Shown: positions 13,477-16,881 of the stretch, in pieces
How positions within the stretch are numbered: the stretch's first letter is position 1
How the letters are laid out: the number at the start of each line of letters is the position of its first letter
Assembly: GCF_001025175.1 (NCBI RefSeq)
Contig: NZ_AP012324.1
Coordinates: 2,108,001 to 2,172,000 of the forward strand
DNA from: Bifidobacterium breve DSM 20213 = JCM 1192
GTDB lineage: Bacteria > Actinomycetota > Actinomycetes > Actinomycetales > Bifidobacteriaceae
Direction: 5' to 3'
Length of the DNA: 64,000 nt
Program-made: the position numbers and the translations under genes
The notes under the pieces: generated by a model
What the model saw: only the letters and a program-made list of their open reading frames with translations
Databases searched by the model: none
What the model was told of the DNA's origin: nothing

Positions 13477-13879
13477 ATCCTTTGCCTCCCTGTTTCGCAA
13501 GACGGATGCATCAGGCATGTGCTGCAACCGTCCAAGACGAGCTATGCTCTTGCCGATATCGAGGCCGTTCCGCACTGCGCGGCAGCCTCACAAGAGCACG
13601 TCGACTCTGCGAATAATAGGTGTTATACATCGTGGGTAAGTGTAACAGAATGCGATGAACCTATTCCTGATACGACGAATCGCAACAGAATTTCCATGTT
13701 CCGCGCGATTATGCGCAGTTTTTTGCATCGCTTTTACCCACATTGACCATGTTTGTTCCCAGCGCATTCCCAGACTTCATTGAGGGGTATAACAGTATTG
13801 CGCAAGAAAACGGTCACGAAGCGCAACAATAGTAGAGCCGTATTGATTTGTTCGGCTTAGGAGAACGGGAGAGGTACAC
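13477..13879. other. Divergent intergenic region, no gene seen
   Basis: About 400 bases separate the LCP gene and the FtsX-like permease, which are transcribed in opposite directions. The region must hold both promoters. GTATAAC-like boxes occur on each strand (about 13628 and 13786), and GGGAGAGG precedes the permease ATG. No coding sequence or RNA gene is recognised. Confidence 0.5.
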
Positions 13880-15340
13880 ATGTTCGTCCTCAGCAACGCC
13901 TGGCGGGCTTTGATGCGTTCCAAGGGACGCACCACCCTAACCGCGTTCATCACTCTGGCAGTCACGTTCGGCACGGTTGCCGGACTGGCCATTGTGCAGG
14001 AAAACACCACCGCACACACCACCACATACAATTCGCAGAAAGCCAATATGGCGATTCGCCCGAGCGCGGCCACCTGGAAGAAGGTCTCCGCCACCGACTC
14101 GGCCACCACCAAGCATTACATGACCTGGTCGTCGTACACCGATTACGCCTCGGCTATTCAGACCGCCGGTACCACGCTCGACTTCACCGTTACCGGAACA
14201 GTACCCGCCCGCGTGAGTGGCGATTTGAAAGCGCTCGATGGCGGCTCGCTCGGCTCCGCTTCCGACGATAAGACCGGCGGCCAGCTGGTTTGGCGCGCAT
14301 TCTGGACCAAGGACGCGGCCAAAGCAAGCGATCTTGGCACCTTTGAAATCGTGGACGGCAAGGGCCTGAGCTATAACAACAAATCCGCCAACCCAGACAC
14401 CACCGGCGCATTGGTCTCTGAAGCGTTTGCCAAGGCCAATAATCTTAAGGTGGGCGATACGTTCAAGGTAGCCACTGCCACCAGCGCATCAGACACCGCA
14501 GAGCTCAAGGTGCGCGGCATCTACAAGTACACCTCCGAATCCACCGTGGACAACCCGGTGGTTGCCGCCCGCAATCGCGAGAACGCGATCTTCACGAACT
14601 ACCAGACCTTCTCCAAGGCCGGACTCGACCCGCAGTACAGCAATGAAACCGCCTCCGGGTGGGAGCTGCCTGACCTGAACGTGGTGTTCAACGTCACGGA
14701 TTCTGCTACATATGATTCTCTGCTGAAAACGCTGAAGAAAGCCAAGCTGCCGGCCAAGGGCTACACCATCTCTTCCCCCTCGCTCGAGGCTTACACCAAG
14801 TCGCTTGAGCCGTTGGATACCTTGGCTGCTCGTGCCAAGACCGGCGTGATCGTGCTGCTCACCGTGGGTGGCGTGCTGTTGCTGGCCCTAGTGCTGCTGG
14901 CCGCGTGGACGCCGAAGCGCAATGATGAAATCGGCATGGCGCTGGTTTCCGGCGTAACTCGCGGCCGCCTTGGCTGGCAATTCATGCTTGAGGTGTTCTT
15001 CGCCACCCTGCCGTTCTATGTGATCGGCCTGGTCGGTGGCGCCTTTGCGGCAAAGCCCATCGGCGCGGCATTGATCTCCGGCCACACTACCGCAGTCACC
15101 TCTAGCCTGATTTGGCAGATGGTCTGGGGCGGGCTCGGCGCCATTTTAGCGCTGGCTATTCTTGCGGCCTTGCGACTTGCGTTCTTCAGCGCAGCCAAGC
15201 TCTTTGCCGCTGATGGCGACTGGGGCACAGTCAGCGAAATCGAGACCATTGAAGAGGCTGACGACGAGGTTGCCGAACTCGGCAAGGCTGTGACCACTAC
15301 CACGACTACGTCCAACGACGATGCGGAGGCGAAGGCATGA
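13880..15340 (+). CDS. FtsX/MacB-like ABC permease
   Basis: This is a 486-residue membrane protein with MacB topology. One N-terminal membrane segment (about 20-40) is followed by a large extracytoplasmic domain (about 45-310) and three C-terminal membrane segments (about 315-340, 365-395 and 405-435). A charged cytoplasmic tail rich in Glu/Asp/Thr follows. GGGAGAGG is upstream of the ATG. The stop overlaps the start of the next gene by four bases (ATGA), so the two subunits are translationally coupled. MacB/FtsX permeases usually move peptides, lipoproteins or act as mechanotransmitters. The paired ATPase-like subunit is degenerate, so ATP-driven transport is doubtful. Confidence 0.82.
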   Translation: MFVLSNAWRALMRSKGRTTLTAFITLAVTFGTVAGLAIVQENTTAHTTTYNSQKANMAIRPSAATWKKVSATDSATTKHYMTWSSYTDYASAIQTAGTTLDFTVTGTVPARVSGDLKALDGGSLGSASDDKTGGQLVWRAFWTKDAAKASDLGTFEIVDGKGLSYNNKSANPDTTGALVSEAFAKANNLKVGDTFKVATATSASDTAELKVRGIYKYTSESTVDNPVVAARNRENAIFTNYQTFSKAGLDPQYSNETASGWELPDLNVVFNVTDSATYDSLLKTLKKAKLPAKGYTISSPSLEAYTKSLEPLDTLAARAKTGVIVLLTVGGVLLLALVLLAAWTPKRNDEIGMALVSGVTRGRLGWQFMLEVFFATLPFYVIGLVGGAFAAKPIGAALISGHTTAVTSSLIWQMVWGGLGAILALAILAALRLAFFSAAKLFAADGDWGTVSEIETIEEADDEVAELGKAVTTTTTTSNDDAEAKA

Positions 15341-16521
15341 GCGAGAAGAACGAACAGGAACTCAGCAAGGACGAAGCCCTGAAGAACACGGCCGAATCGG
15401 CCATGGCATCCAAGGATGCCATCAAGCCCGCTCCGGCCGATTCCATCCAGTTCAGCGTCATCTTTGACGATGCGGATGGTCTCGACCTCGAGGGTGCGGA
15501 TGACGCCGACGACAATGCCTCCGGTGATATCTACAGCATCATGGCCAGCGCCGAAAGCGCCGCGGATGTCACTGAGGCCTCAGACGCCACCGCCGAGGAC
15601 AACGCGGGCGCAGAACTCAGCGAGGCAGAAGCGGACGCTCTGGCTTCCGCAGACACCTCCGCCGCAGCGACCAAGCGCAATGCGGACCGCGTCAACGAGA
15701 CGCTGAACCTGGCTAAATCTGGCGGCAAAGACGAATTGGTCGAACACGCAGCGCCGGCGGCCAAGGCCACCGAACCGACCATGACGCTCGCCTCGCGCAT
15801 CGATCGCGTGCTCGTGGGCGGCGGCGCGGATGACATCCTGCTCAAGACCTACCCGACCTTTGCGCTGAACAAAGTCACCGTTCCCGGCGCCAAAGGCAAG
15901 ATCAACGTACTCGACAGCGTGGAATTCGCCTGCTACGTGGGTCACGCCTACGCACTGCTCATCACCGACGACCCTGACTCGGGACTGACCGCAGACACCA
16001 AGCGCCGCGCGCTTATGGGCGTGATGAGCGGCCTTGTACAGCCGAAGTCCGGCACGGTGATGAATAAGAGCGCCAACATCGCCGAACTGGAGCCTGTGGA
16101 TCTGCGTGGTCACCGTCTGGGCATCGTACCGCAGCTGCACGCCGTGCAGCCCGATCTGGACGCCGAGCAGAACGTGCTCTATGCCATGAATGCCTCCAAC
16201 CGTAACTTCCTGAAGCCCAAGCCGGTGATCGCTCGTGAACTGCTGGCCAAGGTCGGCTTCTCGGAGGCGACCAGCGGCGTTGCCGTGAGCAAGCTACCCG
16301 TGGTGCAGCAGCGCTTGGTGGCCATTGCCCGCGCCATCAGCACGGAAGCGGAAGTGCTGATTCTCGACGAACCGACCCGCGGCTTGAACGTGGACGACAC
16401 AGTGACCGTGTTCGCCGCCCTTGCCAAGCTGGCGCATAGCGGCGACCCGAAGCACTGCATCATCGTGCTCACCGCCTCGCGCGAGATCGCCGAAGCCGCA
16501 GACCAGATGTTCGAGATCTGA
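15337..16521 (+). CDS. ABC ATPase-like subunit with degenerate nucleotide-binding motifs
   Basis: The 394-residue protein has an acidic N-terminal region (about 1-145, rich in Asp, Glu, Ala), unusual for this family, followed by an ABC fold. The fold is recognisable from LGIVPQLHAVQ (Q-loop-like), an intact Walker B AEVLILDEPTRGLN, and the surrounding order of elements. The Walker A position reads ITDDPDSGLTADTKRRAL and lacks GxxGxGK(S/T). The signature position reads SKLPVVQQRLVAIARAI instead of LSGGQ. The switch region reads VLTASREIAEAAD without the usual His. It overlaps the permease by four bases. I infer a non-hydrolysing structural or regulatory partner; frameshift decay is unlikely because the frame is fully open. 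Confidence 0.8.
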   Translation: MSEKNEQELSKDEALKNTAESAMASKDAIKPAPADSIQFSVIFDDADGLDLEGADDADDNASGDIYSIMASAESAADVTEASDATAEDNAGAELSEAEADALASADTSAAATKRNADRVNETLNLAKSGGKDELVEHAAPAAKATEPTMTLASRIDRVLVGGGADDILLKTYPTFALNKVTVPGAKGKINVLDSVEFACYVGHAYALLITDDPDSGLTADTKRRALMGVMSGLVQPKSGTVMNKSANIAELEPVDLRGHRLGIVPQLHAVQPDLDAEQNVLYAMNASNRNFLKPKPVIARELLAKVGFSEATSGVAVSKLPVVQQRLVAIARAISTEAEVLILDEPTRGLNVDDTVTVFAALAKLAHSGDPKHCIIVLTASREIAEAADQMFEI

Positions 16522-16537: not shown

Positions 16538-16576
16538 AGGCCCCTGCGATTCGGCAATATCGAATCGCAGGGGCCT
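16538..16576 (+). terminator. Terminator of the FtsX-like operon
   Basis: A perfect 16-bp stem (16538-16553 with 16561-16576) has a seven-base loop, 17 bases after the ATPase-like gene stop. The tail is TTCTCG, only partly T-rich. Confidence 0.75.
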
Positions 16577-16583
16577 TCTCGAC

Positions 16584-16769
16584 TTCAAGGGGCTGATTCG
16601 CGCATCTCGGGAAGTCTACTTCCGTTTCGAGGGGCTGGTCATTCAGTCAAACGCATGTAGAAACGGCTTGGCGCAACGCCATTTCGCCATTGTCGGACGT
16701 TGTCTACCTAGACACCAGCCCCTCGAGACGCAAGTAGATCTCCGGAGAAGATCGAATCAGCCCCTCGAA
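16584..16769. repeat. Palindromic intergenic element, family A copy 1
   Basis: Two arms of about 52 bp are inverted copies of each other. Each is bounded by TTCGAGGGGCT-type motifs and contains TCTACTTCCG or its variant. The arms enclose about 80 bases containing TAGAAACGGC and ATTTCGCC. A partial third arm (CGAAACGCAAGTAGACGTC) follows to 16784. A second copy of the same element lies at 36166-36373. The rest of the gap to 16881 holds only the promoter side of the HD gene. Confidence 0.75.
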
Positions 16770-16881
16770 ACGCAAGTAGACGTCAAACAAGGCCCAAATC
16801 TGTTCCCACTGACATCAACGTGGCTTATTCCCGAGCTAATCTAGGGATAATCCTGACCTTACGAAACGAAACTTGACGATC

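Follow-up and report, generated by a model that had tools for sequence, protein, structure and literature searches.

An ABC NBD is generally recognized by its ATPase motifs, and where degenerate sites are known, a working site is normally found beside them. The locus described here raises the question of what an FtsX/MacB-type permease does when its partner gene encodes an NBD homolog without most of these motifs. It is located in a window of 64,000 nucleotides (positions 2108001–2172000) of the Bifidobacterium breve DSM 20213 = JCM 1192 genome, which is a single contig of 2,269,415 bases. An earlier note, made from the sequence alone, had described two overlapping open frames at this locus, and we could confirm both: the 486-residue permease is encoded at 13880–15340 and the 394-residue ABC homolog (pseudo-NBD) at 15337–16521, both on the forward strand like the parts of the operon given with coordinates below, and the permease stop overlaps the pseudo-NBD start in the sequence ATGA (15337–15340). 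A perfect 16-bp stem-loop, read from the sequence just 3′ of the pseudo-NBD stop (16538–16576), is a probable terminator, and therefore the two genes look like a two-gene operon. The intergenic stretch that follows (16590–16790) contains short near-repeats of CAGCCCCTCGAnACGCAAGTAGA.

On the 5′ side, alignment of 12 related species revealed that the approximately 100 bases preceding the permease gene are strikingly conserved. This leader (13770–13879, with the ribosome-binding region at 13860–13874) is the likely promoter region, occurs only once in the genome and contains the inverted repeat TTGCGC-N17-GCGCAA (13798–13826). No consensus sigma-70 site was found in it. An Rfam search of the leader returned no family and its folding stability is not above expectation, which argues against a structured RNA. 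The leader with its inverted repeat is possibly an operator or an unusual promoter.

The C-terminal part of the pseudo-NBD (residues ~170–394) is an ABC domain by profile as well as by predicted structure. The Pfam profile ABC_tran matches with an E-value of 3.5e-13 and 50.8 bits (cut-off: 25), and this match begins at profile position 27, past the P-loop. AlphaFold predicts almost all of residues 171–394 with pLDDT >90, and the closest folds identified by Foldseek are the MacB ABC domain in first place, together with LolD, YbbA and FtsE. The family alignment and structure model that the earlier note had proposed thus confirmed a MacB/LolD/FtsE-type fold. The N-terminal region of about 145 residues that the note had called acidic (residues 1 to ~147) is predicted to be disordered save for two short helices.

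The ATP site of this domain is largely gone. In the window protein, residues 209–225 (15961–16011) form a loop in place of Walker A with R223 at the position of the lysine, the ABC signature (residues 319–327, 16291–16317) reads KLPVVQQRL instead of HLSGGEQQR, and the switch-histidine site (residues 379–381, 16471–16479) reads TAS with A380 at the critical position. With a census of 104 aligned pseudo-NBDs (genus: 90; sister genera: 14), we could establish that none contains a Walker A string (GxxGxGK[ST] or GxxxxGK[ST]), an LSGGQ signature or the GG pair of the signature, or the switch (H-loop) histidine. The position of the Walker A lysine is occupied by R (72 sequences), H (25), L (3), Q (2) or V (2), and the A-loop aromatic is missing from nearly all 104. 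R223 of the window protein sits in an acidic loop with an insertion of 8–10 residues that most orthologs lack. Another 14 loci, mostly from the asteroides group, display the same losses. Walker B is the exception. This motif (residues 340–345, VLILDE, 16354–16371) is part of an intact LILDEPT in the window, and the Asp-Glu pair of active ABC ATPases is kept in most sequences (D344: 100/104; E345: 85/104), as is the Q-loop glutamine (90/104). Both residual motifs erode further in single lineages, as expected for a domain predicted not to catalyze. Since the losses are family-wide, we can exclude damage in a single strain; orthologs with intact motifs, which the earlier note had named as a sign of such damage, were found only as a separate paralogous pair. 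Judged by its motifs, the pseudo-NBD is supported as an ATPase-dead ABC subunit.

The residues that remain could still have a function. In one alternative, the pseudo-NBD would use R/H223, D344 and the retained Q-loop for a new mode of nucleotide or anion binding, and would act as a ligand-gated switch without hydrolysis. The residue at position 223 is basic in 97/104 sequences, and all 97 contain D344. The only losses of Asp344 occur in the xylocopae/Bombiscardovia clade (L117–L120), where four sequences carry Q344, each with a non-basic residue 223. These frequencies leave room for anion or unusual nucleotide binding and count against a nucleotide-independent reading of the pair. However, the covariation arose only once, in a small clade, and could be no more than the trace of a structural salt bridge, so that we treat it as a lead. 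In addition, the glycine-rich loop that would hold the nucleotide is gone together with the A-loop aromatic and the signature. We therefore consider a ligand switch rather unlikely. That D344Q coincides with a non-basic residue 223 does hint that a salt bridge fills the pocket in other members of the family.

The evolutionary origin of the motif loss could be traced by phylogeny. In a maximum-likelihood tree, all 45 sampled pseudo-NBDs form one clade with a support of 100/100, apart from intact NBDs; the stem of this clade is long (1.3 changes per column). Removal of all motif columns leaves the support at 100/99, which excludes independent losses. This topology argues for a single old loss that was kept, and not for damage: as read from the tree, the motifs were lost once, in a separate copy, before the divergence of Bifidobacterium and its sister genera. 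The closest NBDs and permeases that we found belong to an intact paralogous pair of the Bifidobacteriaceae (L002, L123, L127–L143), which occurs in outlying genera of the family as well as in many genomes that contain the pseudo-NBD. Gene order is shared between the two pairs, and their permeases start with a similar motif (MFVxxNAW). The paralogous NBDs (~220–270 aa) contain GPSGAGKT, LSGGEQ, ADEPTGNLD and TH, whereas the pseudo-NBDs are devoid of Walker A, signature and switch histidine. The paralogous permeases are larger than the window permease and contain low-complexity loops. The intact-NBD sibling pair of the source genome (L002, G000:C1:396108-399749) encodes a permease of only 308 residues. 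This protein lacks the extracellular domain and TM2–TM3 through an in-frame gap flanked by two low-complexity Gly/Ser-rich loops; its relatives, in which these parts are present, measure ~560–640 residues. This shortening is either a real deletion or a collapsed assembly.

Within the genus, 99 of 112 genomes contain a pseudo-NBD match at E ≤ 1e-25. Both genes are absent from 12 genomes (G035, G057, G076, G077, G099 and G104–G110), which are all small (1.5–1.8 Mb) and probably represent the Gardnerella group. In G017 (L110, G017:C22:76524-83870), the pseudo-NBD frame is broken near the lost signature and the permease is intact. At each of the 90 genus loci examined, permease and pseudo-NBD are neighbors, and at least 39 loci share the four-base overlap, with start codons assigned by script. 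Beyond the family, ~270 genomes from the same order contained no permease relatives at E ≤ 1e-20. A scan of 84,980 GTDB species for YAMxASxRNF, which catches only sequences carrying this motif, returned confirmed relatives only from Bifidobacterium and Bombiscardovia.

The long stem, the 12 small genomes without the pair and the frame break in G017 could indicate a gene that is decaying on its way to loss. Selection analysis contradicts this reading. Compared with seven close species, dN/dS is 0.06–0.11 for the NBD, 0.14–0.21 for the permease and 0.16–0.27 for the tail (Nei–Gojobori; rough values, since dS of the NBD is 0.7–1.1). Within the pair, constraint is thus strongest on the dead NBD. 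Frames are open in about a hundred species, and novel positions have become conserved. These observations make decay very improbable and agree with the earlier note, which had taken the locus for a maintained pair.

What is maintained has shifted in place. Alignment columns at the A-loop, Walker A, signature and H-loop have gained 1.4 to 2.2 bits of entropy over their counterparts in the intact paralogs, whereas entropy in the helical subdomain is lower. The strongest conservation is found in the Q-loop and helical subdomain (residues 257–303, RGHRLGIVPQ...YAMNASNRNFLKPKPVIARELL, 16105–16245), where many positions are newly constrained in the clade: this segment holds 13 of the 25 positions that gained most constraint (5.2 expected, p = 2e-4). 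The Q-loop contacts the TMD in FtsE (PMC7468199), and residues 257–303 span through and past this loop. By these alignments, the focus of constraint is no longer the ATP site but the helical subdomain around the putative permease-contact groove.

The permease offers a matching surface. Its Pfam FtsX domain (5.2e-11) and an AlphaFold model with a mean pLDDT of 84.7 describe one N-terminal TM helix (TM1, residues ~15–51), an extracellular domain of ~260 residues (~52–309), three C-terminal TM helices (TM2–TM4, ~310–343, 361–398 and 408–434) and an acidic C-terminal tail, all within 13880–15340. The closest PDB folds are 5xu1, MacB and LolE. The cytosolic loop at residues 345–371 (14912–14992) contains the motif RxxEIGxALxxGVxxxRLGWQFMLE, in which R347, E350, G358, Q367 and E371 are invariant across 24 diverse sequences; by analogy with pneumococcal FtsX (PMC7468199), this loop would act as a coupling helix. 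With four TM helices, a large extracellular domain between TM1 and TM2, the FtsX domain and this motif, the protein has the features of a type VII (MacB/FtsX) permease. We propose that the pseudo-NBD docks on the coupling helices, because selection has preserved the interface, as predicted from conservation and homology, along with the helical subdomain next to it.

Known type VII exporters such as MacB, LolCDE and SP0785-SP0787 share with the pair the NBD fold (MacB ABC domain 5lj9 as best match; LolD), a four-helix permease whose extracellular domain is long (5xu1, MacB, LolE) and the coupling-helix motif. However, all of these systems hydrolyze ATP, whereas the pseudo-NBD is devoid of Walker A, signature, switch histidine and A-loop aromatic, and the acidic tail of ~145 residues is an addition. 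Scores from equivalog profiles are also far below their cut-offs (LolD: 60.9 vs 307.75; MacB: 59.6 vs 966). The earlier note had compared the pair to FtsEX-type systems. This comparison holds insofar as both combine a permease with a separate NBD of related fold and may relay a signal rather than transport a substrate. Membership in FtsEX can be excluded, since the FtsE equivalog score is only 43.4 bits (cut-off: 264.85) and the source genome encodes a canonical FtsE elsewhere (571658, 275 bits, above the curated cut-off) near a 308-residue FtsX-domain protein (573410). Furthermore, FtsEX depends on the ATPase activity of FtsE, in contrast to a pseudo-NBD without catalytic motifs other than Walker B. 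Degenerate sites that lost the Walker A lysine and carry a deviant signature are described for the second NBDs of RbsA and NupO (Stockner 2020, via PMC11466899). In such systems, one working site per complex remains; the sole NBD of the window operon is predicted to be dead except for Walker B. Among open-licence papers, we found no published description of the permease/pseudo-NBD pair. By these comparisons, the pair belongs to the type VII ABC systems as a family-wide variant that is predicted to be ATPase-dead.

The main rival to a complex that runs without nucleotide is the use of ATP in trans: another NBD, either the intact paralog or a promiscuous ATPase, would drive the permease, with the pseudo-NBD as a regulatory or asymmetric partner. 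The source genome (L002) and many relatives do contain an intact paralogous NBD with LSGG and P-loop, and one degenerate site is a frequent feature of ABC systems (PMC11466899). On the other hand, the window-type permease is the only profile match in 33 genus genomes, a few of which had some candidates unscored, so a paralogous pair is not available there. A mixed dimer would also break both composite sites, one by lacking the signature and the other by lacking Walker A. These two observations weaken the rival, and it is furthermore the pseudo-NBD, not the permease, that is most constrained. Borrowing from the intact paralog, as contemplated in the earlier note, is therefore unlikely as a rule, and we regard ATP use in trans in general as unlikely. 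Common ancestry and the similar permease start motif would also fit a copy that acts as a dominant-negative or decoy and dampens the intact pair through mixed complexes. This function is improbable, given that the pair is retained where the profile search detects no paralogous pair and that the paralog's own permease is truncated in the source genome.

We favor, with some reserve, the reading that the permease and pseudo-NBD form a nucleotide-independent type VII ABC complex of MacB/LolCDE/FtsEX fold, which would serve as a transmembrane scaffold or relay and not as a pump. The scaffold or sensor role without hydrolysis that the earlier note had suggested is supported to this extent. The sequences show that an ancestral permease–ATPase gene pair was duplicated in the Bifidobacteriaceae. 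The ATPase of one copy lost Walker A, signature, switch histidine and A-loop aromatic and has since remained under purifying selection, paired with its permease, across Bifidobacterium with the exception of the 12 small genomes. The docked pseudo-NBD may clamp, lock or shape the permease without an ATP cycle, and the extracellular MacB-like domain may bind an envelope partner. The acidic tail may recruit a cytosolic partner through a short conserved motif (IQFSVIFDD in the window, residues 37–45, 15445–15471): a regular-expression census located [VI]xFxVxFDD in 89 of 106 ortholog tails, compared to a mean of 0.09 in shuffled tails. The constraint shift, the invariant coupling-helix residues and this tail motif are marks of a docking adaptor, as far as alignments can tell. 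The broader proposal, that an entire family of ABC-type complexes runs without nucleotide and that its NBD is a pure adaptor connecting, across the membrane, a tail-bound cytosolic partner to an envelope-facing FtsX/MacB permease, has in our estimate somewhat less than an even chance. An NBD homolog without Walker A, signature and switch histidine, kept by most of a human gut genus as the best-conserved part of its operon, would be a natural case in which the mechanical and docking roles of an NBD are set apart from its use of fuel. The pair also makes it readily testable whether a type VII permease can signal in the absence of ATP, and the intact paralogous pair, which many of these genomes also contain, serves as a control.

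The earlier note had found a wall-associated role attractive, since the pair lies next to an LCP ligase and wall hydrolases. The LCP, GH25 and L,D-transpeptidase genes that adjoin the pair in the window are not conserved neighbors across the rest of the genus. LCP adjoins the pair in only one other locus examined (L040; many loci have short flanks), and GH25 with LdtA in one (L058). Since the wall-gene neighbors are local, the wall hypothesis has only the fold analogy to draw on. Genes for an HD-domain protein, an amidotransferase-like protein and Kup are the neighbors that are conserved, in most cases on the opposite strand. A link to Bbr_1890, an essential orphan ATP-binding gene of B. breve UCC2003 (PMC5514069), is excluded by position: about eight genes separate Bbr_1890 from nrdF (Bbr_1898), and nrdF is located at ~2.23 Mb in the present genome, while the pair is at 2.12 Mb. 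At 35 loci (L065, L072 and 33 others), though not at the window locus, a divergently transcribed frame of ~650–830 residues just upstream of the permease encodes a polytopic membrane protein with the motif QIDAPAHYYFIRKILD, which is a possible functional partner of the pair.
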